A stretch of 64,000 bases of DNA from an uncultured Jannaschia sp. (GTDB lineage Bacteria; Pseudomonadota; Alphaproteobacteria; Rhodobacterales; Rhodobacteraceae). The DNA lies in assembly GCF_947503795.1 (NCBI RefSeq), contig NZ_CANNEZ010000003.1, forward strand, positions 214,357 to 278,356. Direction: 5' to 3'. The notes beneath the pieces were generated by a model. The model saw only the letters and a list, made by a program, of their open reading frames with translations. It was not told the DNA's origin and did not search any database. Positions 9,347-58,377 of the stretch are shown in pieces. The translations under genes were made by a program, and so were the position numbers. Each line of letters starts with the position of its first letter. Within the stretch, counting starts at the first letter, position 1.

Positions 9347-10168
9347 ATGTTCAAGGCGGAGAAGAAATTCAGCTATCCCGCCGCCGCCTTCCGGCTGGGC
9401 GAGCTGATCTTCCATTCGACGGTGCGCGAGACCCGCAAGGGTCACGGCAACGGCTTCGTGGCACTTGGCATGAACATCCTGACCACGGTGATCTTCGTCG
9501 CGGCCTTCTACATCATGTTCTCGGTGCTGGGCCTGAAGGGCAACGCGATCCGCGGCGATTTCGTGCTGTTCCTGATGTCGGGGATCTTCCTCTTCCTGAC
9601 GCACACCAAGGCGGTGGGCGCGGTCAGCGGCGCCGAAGGCCCGACTTCGGGCATGATGCTGCACGTGCCGATGAACACCTTCGTCGCGATCACCTCGGCC
9701 GCGCTGGCCTGCCTCTACCTCCAGACGCTCTCGATGGTGTTGGTGCTCTTCGTGATCCACGTCGCATGGCACCCGGTCATCATCCACGACCCGAGCCATG
9801 CCTTCCTGATGTTCATCCTCGCCTGGTTCACCGGCGTCGCGGTCGGGCTCTGCTTTCTGGCGCTCAAGCCGTGGTTCCCGAACTTCACCAATATCGGAAG
9901 CTCGATCTACCAGCGGATGAACATGATCGCCTCGGGCAAGATGTTCGTCGCCAACACGCTGCCCGCGACGATGCTGGCCTTCTTCGACTGGAACCCGCTG
10001 TTCCACACGATCGACCAGGCGCGGGGCTATACCTTCGTGAACTACAATCCGCATTACACGACCTGGCAATACGCGCTGCTGGTCGGCACCGTCCTGTTGG
10101 TGATCGGCTTCATGGGCGAGCATTTCACCCGCCGGAACACCTCCGCCTCGTGGTTCGCGACGCGATGA
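9347..10168 (+). CDS. ABC-2 type polysaccharide export permease (KpsM/Wzm-like)
   Basis: Inner-membrane channel subunit expected to export a polysaccharide together with an ATPase that is not in this window. The 273-residue protein has about six hydrophobic segments (around 45-65, 75-95, 115-140, 150-175, 200-215, 245-262) and the overall layout of the ABC-2 exporter family, with a cytoplasmic N-terminus. A GAGGAG ribosome site precedes the ATG. It is divergent from cysQ and overlaps the next gene by ATGA. The absence of the cognate ATPase next door is common in this family when the exporter is split between loci. Confidence 0.8.
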   Translation: MFKAEKKFSYPAAAFRLGELIFHSTVRETRKGHGNGFVALGMNILTTVIFVAAFYIMFSVLGLKGNAIRGDFVLFLMSGIFLFLTHTKAVGAVSGAEGPTSGMMLHVPMNTFVAITSAALACLYLQTLSMVLVLFVIHVAWHPVIIHDPSHAFLMFILAWFTGVAVGLCFLALKPWFPNFTNIGSSIYQRMNMIASGKMFVANTLPATMLAFFDWNPLFHTIDQARGYTFVNYNPHYTTWQYALLVGTVLLVIGFMGEHFTRRNTSASWFATR

Positions 10169-24529: not shown

Positions 24530-25698
24530 CCCTCGCGAATTGGCAGGAGGCCGGCTTCGGCCTTTATCTCCACTGGCCGTTCTGTGCCGCCAAGTGCCCT
24601 TACTGCGACTTCAACAGCCATGTCGCCGCATCCATCGACCACGCGGCGTGGCAACGCGCCTATCTCTCCGATCTCGACCATTGGGCCGCACGCACGCCGG
24701 GCCGCGTTCTGACATCGGTGTTCCTCGGCGGCGGCACGCCCTCGTTGATGCAACCCGAAGTGGTCGCGGCGATCCTCGAGCGCATCCATCGGAACTGGAC
24801 CGTCGCCAACGATCTTGAGGTCACGCTCGAAGCCAATCCCGGCTCGGTCGATGCGGATCGCTTCGCAGCCTTCCACGCGGCCGGGGTGAACCGCTTCTCG
24901 GTCGGGTTGCAGGCCCTGAACGATGAGGATCTGCGCCGTCTCGGGCGCCTGCACACCGTCGCCGAGGGTCGCGCCGCGTTCGAGGTCGCCGCGTCGCTGA
25001 CCGACCGGGTGTCCTTCGATCTCATCTACGCGCGACAGGACCAATCGCTCGGCGACTGGGAGGCGGAATTGCGGTCCGCTTTGAGCCAGGCGGGCGAACA
25101 CCTGTCGCTCTACCAGCTCACCATCGAGGACGGCACCGCCTTCGGGGCGCGTCACGCGGCGGGCGGGTTGCGTGGCCTTCCGACCGAAGAGCTGTCCGTC
25201 GCGCAATACGAGATCACGCAGGCCCTGACCGCCGAGGCCGGCTTGCGCCGCTACGAGGTTTCGAATCACGCGCGGCCCGGGGCCGAGTCGCGGCACAACC
25301 TGATCTACTGGCGGGGCGGCGACTGGCTCGGGGTTGGACCCGGTGCACATGGCCGCGTCGCCCTCGACGGCGCGCGCCTCGCGACGGTGGCCCATCGCGC
25401 ACCCGGTGCCTGGTTGCAGGCCGTGGCGCGGCAGGGTCATGGCATCGAGACGACCGAGCCCTTGCCCGCGACAGAAATCGCCGATGAATACGCCCTGATG
25501 TCGCTGCGCCTGACCGAGGGGATGGATCTCGCCCGCCACGCCCGGCTCGGCGGCGCCATCGACGCGGCCGAGGTCGCGGCACTGGTCCAGAGCGGCCATC
25601 TGATGGAGGAGAACGGCCGCCTTCGCGCGACGGAGGCGGGTATCCTCGTATTGAACGCCCTACTTGGACGTATCCTGGGCGAGCCCCCGCGAGAGTAG
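24526..25698 (+). CDS. hemW: Radical SAM heme chaperone HemW
   Basis: Heme chaperone related to oxygen-independent coproporphyrinogen III oxidase, formerly annotated HemN. Of 390 residues, the radical SAM cluster motif CAAKCPYCDFN (CxxxCxxC) is at about 19-29, followed by FLGGGTPSLM, LEANPGSVD and the HemW-specific NRFSVGLQALND. It lacks the HemN N-terminal extension, so HemW is preferred. ATG 24526 overlaps the ridA stop. The last 39 bp overlap, antisense, the end of parB. Confidence 0.93.
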   Translation: MTLANWQEAGFGLYLHWPFCAAKCPYCDFNSHVAASIDHAAWQRAYLSDLDHWAARTPGRVLTSVFLGGGTPSLMQPEVVAAILERIHRNWTVANDLEVTLEANPGSVDADRFAAFHAAGVNRFSVGLQALNDEDLRRLGRLHTVAEGRAAFEVAASLTDRVSFDLIYARQDQSLGDWEAELRSALSQAGEHLSLYQLTIEDGTAFGARHAAGGLRGLPTEELSVAQYEITQALTAEAGLRRYEVSNHARPGAESRHNLIYWRGGDWLGVGPGAHGRVALDGARLATVAHRAPGAWLQAVARQGHGIETTEPLPATEIADEYALMSLRLTEGMDLARHARLGGAIDAAEVAALVQSGHLMEENGRLRATEAGILVLNALLGRILGEPPRE

Positions 25699-26568
25699 GC
25701 GGCACACCGCATCCAACTCGTCGAGCGACTGATAGGCGACCGAGACGGAACCGCCCTGCGTCGCCGCGTCGTGATCGATCGTCACCTTCTGACCCAGGGC
25801 AGCCGTCAGGTCCCCCTCAAGCGCACGGGTATCGGCGTCCTTTGCCGGCTTCGGGGCCGCACGCGGCGTCGACGCCGCCTCGCCCGCCTTGGCCAGCCGC
25901 TCGGTTTCCCGCACCGAAAGGCCCTTGGCGATGACCCGTTCGGCCAACCCGGCCGCATCGGGCGCGTTAATCAGCGCGCGGGCATGTCCAGCCGAGAGTC
26001 GCCCCTCGCGGACGTGATCCTGCACCCGCGCCGGAAGCTTCAGCAGCCGCATCAGGTTGGCCAGGTGGCTCCGAGACTTGCCGAGGACACGGCCCAACTG
26101 CTCCTGCGTGTGTCCGAACCGGTCTATAAGCTGTTGATATCCTTGCGCTTCCTCGATCGCGTTCAGATCCGCCCTCTGCACGTTCTCGATGATCGCGACC
26201 TCGAGTACCGTCTGGTCGTCCATCTCGCGGACGATGATCGGCACCTCGTGCAGCGCGGCCCGTTGCGCCGCGCGCCACCGACGTTCGCCCGCGACGATTT
26301 CGTAGCGTGTGGCGCCTCGGGGGTTTGGCCGCACGACAATCGGCTGGATGATTCCACGCTCCCGGATCGAGGCGGCGAGATCGGACAGATCGTCCTCCTC
26401 GAATCGCTTCCGGGGCTGATCGGCATTCGGCTGCAGCGACTCGATCGGCGCCATCCCGTCGGTCCGCGCGGTCGACGCCGTCGGCGCGCCTTCGGCGTCG
26501 ACCCCGATATCGGCCATCAGGGCGGACAGGCCGCGCCCCATCGGACGGTTCTGGCGCGCATCAGACAT
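25660..26568 (-). CDS. parB: Chromosome partitioning protein ParB
   Basis: CTP-dependent DNA clamp that loads at parS and spreads along DNA for origin segregation with ParA and SMC. The 302-residue protein begins with RPMGRGLSALMADIG, then the ParB/Srx domain with IVVRPNP and the GERRWRAAQRA CTP-binding motif (about 92-102), the ENVQRADLNAIEEAQGY block, the helix-turn-helix HTQEQLGRVLGKSRSHLANLMRLL, and a C-terminal dimerisation region. Two perfect parS sites lie 1.3 and 3.2 kb upstream. It overlaps parA by 8 bp and hemW by 39 bp. Confidence 0.97.
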   Translation of the reverse strand: MSDARQNRPMGRGLSALMADIGVDAEGAPTASTARTDGMAPIESLQPNADQPRKRFEEDDLSDLAASIRERGIIQPIVVRPNPRGATRYEIVAGERRWRAAQRAALHEVPIIVREMDDQTVLEVAIIENVQRADLNAIEEAQGYQQLIDRFGHTQEQLGRVLGKSRSHLANLMRLLKLPARVQDHVREGRLSAGHARALINAPDAAGLAERVIAKGLSVRETERLAKAGEAASTPRAAPKPAKDADTRALEGDLTAALGQKVTIDHDAATQGGSVSVAYQSLDELDAVCRLLSRGLAQDTSK

Positions 26569-27349
26569 GGCTCATGTCCTCCTGTTCGTGACGCTGCATC
26601 AATTCGCTGGCGAGGCTGCGATAGGCGACCGCACCCCGTGACGAAGGATCGTAGTTCAGCACCGGCATCGCATGGCTCGGTGCTTCGCTCAGACGGACAT
26701 TGCGCGGGATCTTCGTGTCGAACACTAGGTCGCCCAGCGTCTCGCGCGCCTCGTCTTCAACCTGCAGGCAGAGATTGTTGCGACGGTCGAACATCGTCAG
26801 GACGACCCCCTCCAGCCTCAGGTCGGGATTGGCCGTCCCCCGTACCTCCCGAACCGTCAGCAGCAACTGGCTGAGGCCCTCAAGCGCAAAGAACTCGGCC
26901 TGAAGTGGCACGAGAATGCGTTGGGCGGCTACAAATGCGTTAATAGTCAGTAGGTTAAGAGACGGTGGGCAGTCGATCAGAACATAGTCGAAGCTCGTCT
27001 CCCGAAGGCGGATCGCGTTCCGAAGATGCATCACGCGACGCGCGCTCGACATCAGCTCCGCATCCGCCGAAGCAAGGTCCATGGTTGCCGGAACGATGGA
27101 AAAGTTGTCGACCCCGGTCGCCTGCGACAGATCATCGACCGAAGCGTCCCCGAGAAGAAGATCGTAGCTGCTGCGCATCCGAGCATCGCGCGCGATCCCG
27201 AGTCCGGTGGATGCGTTTCCTTGGGGATCGAGATCCAGCAGGCACACGCGCTTGCCCCGCATCGCGAGCGCGGCGCCCAGGTTGATTGCGGTGGTCGTCT
27301 TTCCGACGCCGCCCTTCTGGTTTGCCACCGCAATGGTCCGTGCCATCAT
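26561..27349 (-). CDS. parA: Chromosome partitioning ATPase ParA (Soj type)
   Basis: Deviant Walker ATPase that binds nucleoid DNA and moves ParB-parS complexes apart. Of 262 residues, the signature loop is VANQKGGVGKTTTAINLG at 8-25, with LLDLDPQGNASTGLG (A' motif) at about 39-53 and VLIDCPPSLNLLTINA (Walker B) near 125. Two ATG codons in tandem can start the protein (27349 or 27346). It lies 1 bp from the rsmG stop and overlaps parB, forming the rsmG-parA-parB tail of the mnmE-mnmG operon. Confidence 0.97.
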   Translation of the reverse strand: MMARTIAVANQKGGVGKTTTAINLGAALAMRGKRVCLLDLDPQGNASTGLGIARDARMRSSYDLLLGDASVDDLSQATGVDNFSIVPATMDLASADAELMSSARRVMHLRNAIRLRETSFDYVLIDCPPSLNLLTINAFVAAQRILVPLQAEFFALEGLSQLLLTVREVRGTANPDLRLEGVVLTMFDRRNNLCLQVEDEARETLGDLVFDTKIPRNVRLSEAPSHAMPVLNYDPSSRGAVAYRSLASELMQRHEQEDMSHV

Positions 27350-27350
27350 G

Positions 27351-27941
27351 CTATTTCGGGCTCCACTCGCGGATTCTCAGGATGACCGATCCGGCGCGTG
27401 TCACGCTTTCAATCGGCTCAATATCAAAATCCCATTCCCGCCGCGCCTCGTCCACCTCTGATCTCCAGCCTTCGCCCTTCGGAAACACAAGTGTCGCGTC
27501 CGTGCCAGCATGGCGCGTCGCGTACCCAAACAACGTCGTCAAAGGGGCCAAGGCACGCGCCGTGATCGTCTTGGCGCCTTGGGGTGGCGCCGCTTCTATA
27601 CGGTCCGCAATGACGTCGCATGACAGTCCGAGCGATCGCCGCACGGTTCGGAGGAATTCCGCCTTGCGACGGTCGGATTCGATCAAGACAAGCGGATGAA
27701 CGCGGTCCGTGCAGGCGAGGACAAGACCGGGCAATCCTCCACCGCTCCCGAGATCGACCCATTTCCCTGTTTCACCGCCTATCGCGATCAGTTCGAGCGA
27801 ATCTACGATGTGGCGCTCCCAGACGTCGTCCAACGTGGACGCCGAGACCAGATTAATCCGACTGTTCCACTTCTTGAGGAGCGCGACATAGCCATCCAAT
27901 CGCTCTCGTGTTTCACGTGAAACATCGACAAGCGCGGTCAT
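27351..27941 (-). CDS. rsmG: 16S rRNA (guanine527-N7)-methyltransferase RsmG
   Basis: Methylates G527 of 16S rRNA; loss gives low-level streptomycin resistance. The 196-residue protein has [20 protein letters not shown], and the SAM-binding [16 protein letters not shown] at about 61-76. The N-terminal VSRET residues are encoded by a parS site (27909-27924), explaining their persistence in relatives. Its ATG overlaps the mnmG stop by 4 bp. Confidence 0.97.
27909..27924. promoter_or_regulatory. parS: parS centromere site (within rsmG)
   Basis: TGTTTCACGTGAAACA, a perfect 16-bp palindrome, identical to the bacterial parS consensus bound by ParB. It overlaps codons 6-11 of rsmG. An identical copy lies 1.9 kb away at 29793. 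Confidence 0.96.
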
Positions 27942-29809
27942 GCCGCACGCATATGGCGACGAACCGTCGAAAGGATAAGGACGATTGCGGCGGGCGTCAT
28001 ACCTTCCAGTCGCTCCGCGGAGGCGATGTCGACGGGTCGAATGCGGTTCAACTTCTCTCGAAGCTCGGTCGTCAAACCCGAGACATCGCGCCAGTCGATA
28101 TCCCCGGGAATGATCTGACTGCGGCCGCTCTCGACAGCCCGTATGTCGCCATCCATTCGTGACAGGTAGTTGGCATAGATCGCCTCGCGTGCCACCTGGC
28201 GCATCGCCTCGCGGTCATCGCCCGCCTGAAAGACGCAGTCGATCAGCTTCTCTGCATCGATCCCGGGCATTGCCAGGCCGTCGAACACGCTGCGGGTCCT
28301 CTGCCGCGACCCGACTGTCGCATTGCAATCCGCGAGAACGTCGTCGGATACATTCCGCGCCCGAAGGACCTCTCGCGTTGCAGCAAGTACCGTCATCTTG
28401 GCCGAACATGACGCCGCACGTCGTGGCCCCACCACAACGAGTGAAATCCCATCGGCCGTGAGGCGCTGATCCGCGTTATCCGCGCGAAGATGCAAGCGGT
28501 GCTCGGCCCGAGAGGTGAACATCCTGTAAGGCTCGGTCACCCCACGCGACACAAGATCGTCGACCATCACACCGATATAGGACTGATCCCGCCGAAATAC
28601 GTAAGGCGCCCGTCCGGTGGCTGCCAGACCGGCGTTGAGACCCGCAACAAGGCCCTGCGCCGCGGCTTCCTCGTACCCGGTCGTCCCATTGATCTGACCG
28701 GCGAGATATAACCCCGACAATCGATCCAGCTCGAGCGTCGGTCGAAGCTCCCGCGGGTCAACATAGTCGTACTCGATCGCGTAACCTGGCTGCGCAATCT
28801 CTGCCGCCTCAAGACCCTTGATCGTTCGGACATACGCCTCCTGCGCGTCCACGGGCAGCGACGTCGAGATCCCGTTCGGATAGATTACGTCGCCCTCTGC
28901 GGTTTCCGGCTCCAGAAAGATCTGGTGCGATGCCTTGTCGGCGAACCGAACGATCTTGTCCTCGATCGAGGGGCAATAGCGCGGACCGACACCGTCGATC
29001 GTCCCACCGTACATCGCCGACTCGTCCAGCCGGTCTCGGATGATATTGTGGGTCAGCTCGTTGGTGTGGGTGATCGCGCAGGCAATCTGCCGAGCAATGG
29101 GCGCCTCCGAGAGGAAGGAGAACATCGTCGGGTCGGTATCGCCCGGTTGCTCTTCCAACCCGTCCCAATTGATCGTGCTCGCGCGAAGGCGCGGCGGTGT
29201 CCCCGTCTTCAACCGTCCGATTCGGAGACCCAGGTCACGCAGCCTCGCCCCGAGGGCGTTGGCGCCATCGGCCCCCATACGGCCGCCCGGCTGTTGCGCG
29301 CGCCCTATATGGATCACACCACCAAGGAAGGTTCCTGTGGTCAGAATGACCGTCGTGCCTCGGACGGTTCGCCCATCTGCAAGTTGTACGCCCTCGGCCA
29401 CCCCGGCGTCGGCGCCAACCAGATCGGCGACTTCACCAAGGATGAGGTCGATATTCTCCGCCGCAGCAATCTCCCCACTCATCGCGGCACGGTAGCGATT
29501 GCGATCGATCTGCGCGCGCGGGCCTTGAACGGCCGGACCTTTCCGACGGTTCAGCAGACGAAACTGAATACCAGCCTGATCCGCCAGGCGCCCCATGATG
29601 CCGTCGAAGGCATCGATCTCCCGGACAAGATGACCCTTGCCCAATCCACCGATCGCCGGGTTGCAGGACATCGTCCCAAGATCGGTCTCGCGCATCGTGA
29701 CGAGTGCAACGCGACAGCCCAGACGGTGCGCCACATGCGCCGCCTCACAGCCGGCATGGCCCCCGCCGATAACCACAACATCATATGCATCATGTTTCAC
29801 GTGAAACAC
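27938..29809 (-). CDS. mnmG: tRNA uridine-5-carboxymethylaminomethyl modification enzyme MnmG
   Basis: FAD enzyme that with MnmE installs carboxymethylaminomethyl groups at the wobble U34 of certain tRNAs. Of 623 residues, FAD-binding [16 protein letters not shown] is at 11-26; [51 protein letters not shown] and [21 protein letters not shown] are strict family blocks. The start is GTG at 29809 (no in-frame ATG precedes the FAD motif), and a parS site overlaps codons 1-6, encoding FHVKH. It follows mnmE directly without a gap. Confidence 0.97.
29793..29808. promoter_or_regulatory. parS: parS centromere site (at the mnmG start)
   Basis: Perfect TGTTTCACGTGAAACA palindrome beginning one base inside the mnmG GTG start codon. 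It is read in a different frame from the copy in rsmG. About 3.2 kb from the proposed origin. Confidence 0.96.
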
Positions 29810-32555: not shown

Positions 32556-32987
32556 TCAGAACGGCTTGACGATCACCGCCACGACGAGAACCACGAGAAG
32601 CACCGTCGGAACCTCGTTCATCAGCCGGTAATGACGGCCGGTGGCGCCGCCCCCGTCGAGGAGGATCTTGCGCTGTCCGGCGCACCACATATGGAACCAC
32701 GTCATCGTCAGGACGCAGACCGCCTTCACCCAGGGCCAGACCTGCCCCCAGTCGATTCCGCCCATCGCGATCATCCAGAGGCCGAACACCCAGCTTGCGA
32801 TCATGGCGGGGTTCATGATGCCCCGGAGCAGTCGACGCTCCATGATCTCGAGGACCGGCATCATCGCGGGTACATCGGCCCGGCGTTCGACGTGATAGAC
32901 GAACAGCCGCGGCAGGTAGAAGATCCCGGCCATCCACGCGATCACCGAGATCACGTGTCCTGCCTTCACCCAGAGATACAGGTCCAT
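32556..32987 (-). CDS. hemJ: Protoporphyrinogen IX oxidase HemJ
   Basis: Membrane enzyme that oxidises protoporphyrinogen IX to protoporphyrin IX. The 143-residue protein has four hydrophobic segments and the family stretch KAGHVISVIAWMAGIFYLPRLFVYH, containing the heme-binding histidine, plus MTWFHMWCAG and YRLMNEVPT. The ATG at 32987 gives MDLYLWVKAGH; an extension upstream would run into the origin region. In several relatives hemE lies beside it at the origin; hemE is not present here. Confidence 0.9.
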   Translation of the reverse strand: MDLYLWVKAGHVISVIAWMAGIFYLPRLFVYHVERRADVPAMMPVLEIMERRLLRGIMNPAMIASWVFGLWMIAMGGIDWGQVWPWVKAVCVLTMTWFHMWCAGQRKILLDGGGATGRHYRLMNEVPTVLLVVLVVAVIVKPF

Positions 32988-33059
32988 GTCGCGCCCCCGT
33001 CCGAACCTGTCCCCTCTTAAAGAAAGAAAGAAGAAAGAGAAGTTGTTGTGGTTGGGCAC

Positions 33060-33068
33060 CGTGGATAA
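33060..33068 (-). promoter_or_regulatory. DnaA box (8 of 9)
   Basis: TTATCCACG on the minus strand, one mismatch to TTATCCACA, next to the AT-rich tract of the proposed origin. Confidence 0.7.
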
Positions 33069-33082
33069 CGGGGATTAAACGA

Positions 33083-33091
33083 TGATCCACA
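33083..33091 (+). promoter_or_regulatory. DnaA box (8 of 9)
   Basis: TGATCCACA, one mismatch to TTATCCACA, 14 bases from the previous box and in the opposite orientation. Confidence 0.65.
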
Positions 33092-33383
33092 TCGGGAGCG
33101 TTTCTGCGTCGCGGCACGGCCCGATGGCCTCCGTCCTGTGGAGGACTCGGGGGCTTGACGCACGGGCCTTGGAGGATTCGCTGTGGAACGTCTTGGGGAG
33201 TGCGGTTGAAGCACGAGGTACAGGTCAGACCGCTCCACAGCTGGCGATCCAACGGGTGCCATCTGGAAAAGTTCCCTGGGTTCGGCGATAACCCGCCCGG
33301 TTGTCCCCCGCGCGCCACGACACCGGGTTCCCCACCGGTCCATCGACAGGGTTCTCCCGCGGGTTTCTCACAGATCGGTCCCC

Positions 33384-33965
33384 ATGCTCATCCTCGCCTC
33401 GACCTCCACGATCCGGCAGACCCTCCTGCGGAATGCCGGCGTCCCGTTCGAGGCCGTGCCCGCTCGCGTCGACGAGGAGATGGTGCGCGACGCGCTCCGG
33501 GCCGAGGAGGCGCCGCCCCGCGACGTCGCGGACACCCTGGCCGAGATGAAGGCGCTGCGAGTCCGGCGGCCGGGCTTGATCCTCGGCTGCGATCAGGTGC
33601 TGGCCTTCGAGGGCGAGGTGATCGGCAAGCCGGAGACACCCGAGGCGGCCATCGCCCAGCTGACCGCGATGGGCGGCAAGCGCCACAAGCTGCACAGCGC
33701 GGCGGTGATCGTCGAGGATGGCAAGCCGATCTGGCGACATGTCGCGGAGGTCACCATGACCATGCGAACGCCGACCCTGGATTACCTCGCCGCCTATGTT
33801 GCGCGAAACTGGGACGATATCCGCCATTGTGCGGGCGGCTACATGCTCGAGGGCGAGGGCGCACGGCTCTTCCACCGGGTCGACGGCGATTACTTTTCGG
33901 TACTCGGCCTGCCGCTCCTGCCGCTTCTGGGATATCTCGTGACGCGGGGGGAGATTGCCGCATGA
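33384..33965 (+). CDS. maf: Maf-family nucleotide pyrophosphatase
   Basis: Hydrolyses non-canonical or modified nucleoside triphosphates; once called a septum formation inhibitor. The 193-residue protein starts [20 protein letters not shown] (the SxSxxR motif), has VPARVDEE, the catalytic aspartate in [23 protein letters not shown] and [15 protein letters not shown]. It is the first gene right of the proposed origin and starts the maf-aroE-coaE-dnaQ operon, all with ATGA overlaps. No strong ribosome site is visible before its ATG. Confidence 0.93.
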
Positions 33966-54565: not shown

Positions 54566-55122
54566 CGCAGGGCCTTCCGGATGGTGTCCCGGACGAGTGC
54601 GATGGCCGCGGCGGGATCGGTGTCCGACAGCGCGTGGCGCACGTAGAGCCCGTCGATCAGCGCGCCGACCGTCTCGGCCAGGCGTTCGGGCTGGTGGGTG
54701 AGCGGTCGCGCGGCATGGATCAGGTTCGACCGCAGGCGCCGCTGGTAGACATGCAGAAGCTGCCGGGTCCCGGCATCATGCTGGGCGTGGACGTAGAAGG
54801 TCAGCCAGGCGGCGACGATGTCGCGCTCGAAGGTGCGGGGCGCGAGGCATGCGGCGACGATTGCGTCGAGCCGGTCCTTGGGCGTCTTCGCTCCGGCCAG
54901 TTCGGCGCGGACGCTGGCACCGAGATCGCGCAGGATGTGCCGCATCGCGGCCACCAGCATCCGGTCCTTCGATCCGAAATAGTGATGCGCCAATGCGGGC
55001 GACATGCCGGCGCGCTTCGCGATCGTCGCGACGGTCACGTCCAGCGATCCGCGCGCGCCGATCTCGGCGATGGCGGCCTCGGCCAAAGCGGCGCGGCGGA
55101 CAGGTTCGGGCTGGGTGCGCAT
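54562..55122 (-). CDS. betI: TetR-family repressor BetI
   Basis: Choline-responsive repressor of the bet genes. The 186-residue protein has the TetR helix-turn-helix ATIAKRAGMSPALAHHYFGSKDRMLVAAMR (about 33-62) and the ligand domain ending LYVRHALSD. The frame could start at a TTG at 55152, but that codon lies inside the palindrome at 55132-55153; ATG 55122 gives the length of E. coli BetI and keeps the operator outside the gene. First gene of betICBA, downstream of oxyR on the same strand. Confidence 0.9.
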   Translation of the reverse strand: MRTQPEPVRRAALAEAAIAEIGARGSLDVTVATIAKRAGMSPALAHHYFGSKDRMLVAAMRHILRDLGASVRAELAGAKTPKDRLDAIVAACLAPRTFERDIVAAWLTFYVHAQHDAGTRQLLHVYQRRLRSNLIHAARPLTHQPERLAETVGALIDGLYVRHALSDTDPAAAIALVRDTIRKALR

Positions 55123-55131
55123 CGGAAGTCC

Positions 55132-55153
55132 ATTGATTGACCAGTCAATCAAT
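55132..55153. promoter_or_regulatory. Probable BetI operator
   Basis: Perfect inverted repeat ATTGATTGAC-CA-GTCAATCAAT (10-bp arms). It lies 9 bases before the betI ATG, and TTGACA on the minus strand at 55177-55172 may be the -35 box, with a weak -10 overlapping the operator. Typical TetR-type autoregulatory site. Confidence 0.75.
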
Positions 55154-55173
55154 CTTCACACCACGCGTGTTTG

Positions 55174-58377
<3,204 letters not shown>

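Follow-up and report, generated by a model that had tools for sequence, protein, structure and literature searches.

The window, by which we mean the whole analysed stretch of 64,000 nucleotides (G000:C3:214357-278356), belongs to a 3.46-Mb genome assembled in four contigs. It contains a 396-bp non-coding gap flanked by two divergent genes, hemJ and maf:

32556 to 32987, minus strand: hemJ, left boundary gene, with its ATG at 32987; PF03653 above the cut-off, TIGR00701 (HemJ) just below it
32988 to 33383, no strand: hemJ-maf divergent intergenic region, predicted as the chromosomal oriC from its length, kept in the family, and from the skew
33384 to 33965, plus strand: maf, right boundary gene, with its ATG at 33384; PF02545 above the cut-off, TIGR00172 just below it

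The two start codons agree with the limits that the first-pass annotation had set for the gap. Among the best 80 of 492 confirmed, named maf relatives, those ranked 1-10 are all Jannaschia. To the left of the gap, hemJ, rho, mnmE, mnmG, rsmG, parA and parB follow each other on the minus strand, and to the right, maf, aroE, coaE and a gene for a DnaQ-like exonuclease lie on the plus strand; the profile matches thus bear out that the genes on both flanks are directed away from the gap. The further claim that the window has no other stretch above 300 bp free of genes holds approximately and is not proven, since there are other candidates. Two more stretches went uncalled by the crude coding-potential script, 55087-55863 and 27350-27937, the latter being rsmG by profile match. 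In addition, Pfam gave no match for the ORF called at 9347-10168, which overlaps an Rfam match at 9911-10063, a region that may be a second gene-poor stretch. This match, on the minus strand at 60.9 bits and overlapping ORFs, is to the Ruegeria Cis2 sRNA (RF02645). It is the sole Rfam match in the 64-kb window and lies outside the hemJ-maf gap, and an RNA reading of the gap was therefore rejected.

Two oppositely oriented DnaA boxes with one mismatch each had been annotated in the gap, and both their positions and their letters proved correct. They are listed here together with three degenerate boxes that occupy recurrent columns of the gap alignment, which comprises 81 rows (the window, 5 same-genus loci and 75 named loci):

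33060 to 33068, minus strand: DnaA box TTATCCACG, 1 mismatch; column 128, near-consensus in 7 of 81 rows
33069 to 33077, minus strand: degenerate box TAATCCCCG, 3 mismatches; column 137, near-consensus in 24 of 81 rows
33083 to 33091, plus strand: DnaA box TGATCCACA, T to G at position 2; column 151, near-consensus in 6 of 81 rows
33194 to 33202, minus strand: degenerate box CACTCCCCA, 4 mismatches; column 333, near-consensus in 43 of 81 rows
33364 to 33372, plus strand: degenerate box TTTCTCACA, 3 mismatches, adjoining maf; column 575, the best-conserved box column, near-consensus in 55 of 81 rows

The box TTATCCACA occurs at three sites with at most one mismatch in the 64-kb window, against 2.51 expected, so that the total is not above chance. 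The clustering is: two of the three sites lie in the gap, inverted and 23 bp apart, and two near-consensus boxes were never reached in 2000 mononucleotide shuffles of the gap. Genome-wide, only two pairs of such sites lie less than 400 bp apart, one in the hemJ-maf gap and the other at C1:860267/860291. The shuffles and the genome-wide pair list together rule out a chance origin of the pair in the gap. Sites resembling TGATCCACA (at most one mismatch) number 22 in the window versus 10.9 expected; being above chance window-wide, they say little about the gap. Boxes with the T-to-G substitution are described in the excerpted text of PMC4468827 as G-boxes with moderate DnaA affinity, and W-boxes as very weak.

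Several other motifs were found in the gap:

33015 to 33056, plus strand: AT-rich polypurine tract, candidate DNA-unwinding element (33017-33056: AT 0.65, purine 0.78)
33069 to 33075, plus strand: CGGGGAT, directly after the box at 33060, in 16 of 16 same-genus rows, overlapping the column-137 box position
33144 to 33148, no strand: GANTC site, from the motif search
33175 to 33179, no strand: GANTC site, from the motif search

The AT-rich purine tract reported to the left of the boxes is real, as the AT richness of the 40-mer at 33015 is equalled by 10 of the 63,961 40-mers of the window, and the tract is present in all 16 same-genus rows compared. It adjoins the boxes and is a candidate DNA-unwinding element, a role assigned from its composition and position. 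A DnaA-trio is defined in the excerpted text of PMC7561715 as more than three triplets beside a GC cluster. We saw by eye no clear run of triplets in the window; TAGG stands near a box in 63 of the 81 rows, the window has TTGG, and among the relatives only a first triplet TAG before a run of G recurs.

The two GANTC sites are likewise real, and over 75 family gaps GANTC is denser inside (4.02 per kb) than in the surrounding DNA of their loci (1.81 per kb). The ratio of observed to expected sites is 1.09 inside the gaps and 0.50 outside, so the gap only escapes a depletion found outside it, which makes GANTC unfit as an origin mark. In the window as a whole GANTC is scarce, with 66 sites versus 360 expected from dinucleotide shuffles, a figure in which the palindrome was possibly counted on both strands; this scarcity is in line with CcrM-type avoidance. 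The CtrA site TTAA-N7-TTAA has no match in the window at up to one mismatch, which speaks against Caulobacter-like CtrA control, and the full site occurs in 8 of the 81 family gaps.

We examined the conservation of the gap in the best 80 of the 492 confirmed, named maf loci. In 75 of these 80, hemJ is divergent to maf across a gap of 379-443 bp. The other five have no hemJ match: in three (L191, L205 and L227) the sequence, with 74-430 bp before maf, is too short to show hemJ, and in L188 and L206 hemJ was not found beside maf despite ~3 kb of upstream sequence. The 75 family gaps contain 192 near-consensus boxes (at most one mismatch), versus 8.2 expected from shuffles; at least one such box is present in 71 of them, at least two in 63 and a perfect box in 19. 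The DnaA-box count proposed in the first-pass annotation, when run over these gaps, gave 6.04 near-consensus boxes per kb inside versus 0.24 elsewhere in the same loci, a 25-fold difference. Besides the columns listed above, column 173 recurs in 18 of the 81 rows, and there the window has no recognisable box. Since columns 128 and 151 carry a box in so few rows, the boxes at 33060 and 33083 are good local evidence and not the family-conserved ones.

Within the genus, 19 relatives were compared, of which the 6 without a DNA match at E ≤ 0.001 were left out; L022 and L024, which belong to other genera, were kept out of the alignment (the maf match of L024 covers residues 2-69 only). The gap measures 379-409 bp in the 14 same-genus loci that include our own. 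This length, the AT-rich purine tract and CGGGGAT (16 of 16 rows for each of the latter two) are the genus-wide constants. Canonical boxes, searched with three patterns, are absent from 8 of the 13 same-genus relatives with a full gap (L004, L007-L013).

The region to the left of the gap carries a chromosome partitioning system:

25660 to 26568, minus strand: parB, from profile matches
26561 to 27349, minus strand: parA; Pfam AAA_31 and CbiA above the cut-off, ParA/RepA/MinD-type NCBIfam below it
27909 to 27924, no strand: perfect parS TGTTTCACGTGAAACA within the 5' end of rsmG, ~5.1 kb from the gap
29793 to 29808, no strand: perfect parS TGTTTCACGTGAAACA within the 5' end of mnmG, ~3.2 kb from the gap

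These are the only two parS sites in the whole genome at up to two mismatches. The cumulative GC skew, also proposed as a check, was calculated from sampled stretches and, as the assembly is in four contigs, read contig by contig. On C3, the 120 kb sampled to the left of the window have a skew, as (G-C) per base, of -0.0126 (five of six stretches negative, one positive), and the 111 kb sampled to its right have one of +0.0178 (six of six positive). The sign thus changes about the window, and the cumulative minimum lies within it at C3:258 kb, ~11 kb to the right of the gap (C3:247.3-247.7 kb). A same-genus genome in a single contig of 3.32 Mb (G014), of which 380 kb around the homologous locus was read gap-free, has its skew trough at 1.61-1.67 Mb, with the lowest values near 1.635 and 1.666 Mb; the homologous locus, at 1.6328 Mb, falls in this trough, and the sampled maximum at 3.24-3.28 Mb is about half a genome away. 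For a second relative, genome G003 (20 stretches in 180-kb steps), the agreement is coarse: the minimum near 0.72 Mb and the locus at 0.60 Mb agree within one step. The 573-kb contig C2 (G000:C2) of our own genome shows mixed skew. The skew resolves to tens of kilobases, which fixes the region and does not single out the gap; the gap itself, as the predicted origin, is singled out by its boxes and their conservation.

Judged from its sequence, the stretch 32988-33383 is very probably the chromosomal oriC of this Jannaschia-type bacterium. The skew, the parS sites and the family-wide enrichment of boxes all support the first-pass proposal of a chromosomal origin between hemJ and maf. Several observations speak against it: canonical boxes are scarce here and vary between members of the genus, as the eight relatives devoid of them show; the skew trough is broad and its lowest point on C3 lies off the gap; one-mismatch sites are no commoner genome-wide than those of a reversed control pattern (86 versus 191); an equally tight pair that includes a perfect box lies upstream of mraZ; and the window shows no clear DnaA-trio. 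An origin beside dnaA was rejected, because dnaA lies at C1:144308, on a different contig from the window.

The mechanism that we infer starts from what can be read in the DNA itself, namely the boxes, the tract, the family conservation, the parS sites and the skew. DnaA would assemble across the 396-bp gap on boxes that are mostly sub-consensus, probably nucleating at the inverted pair of stronger boxes (33060 and 33083), with the weak sites then filled cooperatively. The bound DnaA would melt the adjoining AT-rich purine tract at 33015-33056 and two helicases would be loaded, from which bidirectional forks would start and leave along the transcription directions of the flanking genes. Segregation of the new origins may then fall to ParB on the two parS sites, which lie 3-5 kb from the gap.

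An oriC adjoining maf is a conserved feature of Rhodobacteraceae according to DoriC, as stated in the excerpted report on Ketogulonicigenium vulgare Hbe602 (PMC4793288), and in the excerpted text of PMC6699656 Ori-Finder was used to assign the oriC of 101 Rhodobacteraceae strains, closeness to parAB being a criterion. Since maf-adjacent oriC is thus reported across Rhodobacteraceae in the former source, the hemJ-maf gap is a new, further member of an already known kind. Like the other members, it is a box-bearing gap directly upstream of maf (33384) with parAB near (25660-27349); it differs in having few consensus boxes, and the three commonest conserved columns are degenerate here. Similarly, the region of oriC1 in Rhodobacter sphaeroides was placed by cumulative GC skew, and this origin is tracked through its parABS system (ParB foci), as described in PMC6315104; its likeness to our locus is one of description.

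The gap also resembles Cori of Caulobacter crescentus in its G-box form TGATCCACA, its few weak DnaA sites, its AT-rich tract and its length of about 400 bp. The box at 33083 has the letters of the Caulobacter G-box; Cori has two G-boxes, against this single exact one in the gap. According to the excerpted text of PMC1914354, Cori (404 bp) and the Rickettsia origins are bounded by hemE and COG1806. Here the bounds are hemJ and maf: the only hemE (URO-D) match is at C1:448176, on a different contig from the gap, and COG1806 (Kinase-PPPase, PF03618) has no match in our genome. The window also differs from Cori in having no TTAA-N7-TTAA site for CtrA. Strictly speaking, the hemJ-maf gap does not belong to the Cori type of origin; it would work like other DnaA origins.

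The second tight pair of boxes in the genome consists of TTATCCCCA and a perfect TTATCCACA at C1:860267-860299, between an mrp/apbC-like ORF and mraZ-rsmH. These genes were named by reading the ORFs and from the MraZ profile match at C1:860651, which is just under the cut-off. An mraZ match is present in 16 of 18 same-genus genomes, our own included, and absent from 2. Upstream of mraZ, a box with at most one mismatch is found in 15 of these 16 loci, our own included (the exception is L275), two or three boxes, spaced by 12 or 23-24 bp, in 13 of 16, and a perfect TTATCCACA in 14 of 16, again including our own. The array terminates in TGTGGATAA in 13 of the 16 loci. A few bases past the array, TGG repeats ~10 bp apart were seen by eye in most same-genus loci and were unclear in L264 and L267; they resemble an MraZ operator and may be one. 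The same-genus loci are L264-L279, and the array was located at L253:1501-1570 and in L278 (G000:C1:860267-860299). At the class level (n = 10), five mraZ loci have no box and the others one to three scattered boxes, with a perfect box in L256 and L262. A family-wide search for an inverted pair at mraZ gave 1 of 61 genomes, a count that is uninformative because the pattern was too strict and misses our own array. The parts of the literature covered, which include excerpts of PMC4446571, PMC9275681 and PMC4414408, made no mention of mraZ promoters with DnaA boxes in this group; this does not prove that no such report exists.

The search for a rival DnaA-box cluster elsewhere therefore did turn up an equally tight pair, one with a perfect box, and this failed as an origin on skew and parS. 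That the true origin is the array upstream of mraZ seems extremely improbable to us, even though it is the sole other pair of boxes less than 400 bp apart in the genome, includes a perfect box and recurs in almost all same-genus loci. The mraZ gene of G014, at 2.549 Mb, is ~0.9 Mb away from the skew trough; in our genome both parS sites are on contig C3 and the array is on C1; and the array stands at the start of mraZ-rsmH beside the TGG repeats, as expected of a transcriptional operator. Its distance from the G014 skew minimum makes the array look like a promoter element and not an origin, and DnaA may control the operon through it or be titrated by it. More tentatively, and with rather less than even confidence, we propose that the genus uses an origin of nearly all sub-consensus DnaA sites, and that the 12-bp-phased array at the promoter of mraZ, in the division and cell-wall operon, may act as a DnaA transcription factor site or in titration, coupling division to the start of replication.

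A closer competitor is an origin elsewhere in the ori-proximal region, in another gap within ~30 kb or beside parAB, with the hemJ-maf gap serving as a conserved divergent promoter of DnaA-regulated genes. The coarse resolution of the skew and the position of the C3 minimum to the right of the gap leave room for such a site, which we nevertheless consider very unlikely, given that the hemJ-maf gap has the family-wide box enrichment, the recurrent columns, the near-fixed length and the AT-rich tract, and that the DoriC statement, as excerpted in PMC4793288, names maf. A different doubt concerns the boxes at 33060 and 33083, which might be unused while weaker sites elsewhere matter; this would be compatible with the gap being oriC. 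The rarity of near-consensus boxes at columns 128 and 151 is in its favour, but none of the 2000 gap shuffles yielded two boxes, and column 137, only 9 columns from 128, is box-bearing in 24 of the 81 rows, so that box position may drift. We regard the disuse of these two boxes as unlikely, and retain the hemJ-maf gap as the predicted oriC.

This reading would place the replication origin of a Jannaschia-type genome. Conserved over the 75 named relatives are the hemJ-maf length, the AT-rich tract and the box columns near hemJ, in mid-gap and beside maf, and not any particular consensus DnaA box. Origin prediction should take note that, ranked by the number of DnaA boxes alone, the mraZ promoter would equal or outrank the origin in this genome. 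Elsewhere in the genome, a 56-kb stretch chosen by eye (G000:C1:904551-960300) holds ten near-DnaA-box sites (at most one mismatch), versus ~1.4 expected from the genome mean; it is perhaps a low-GC island.
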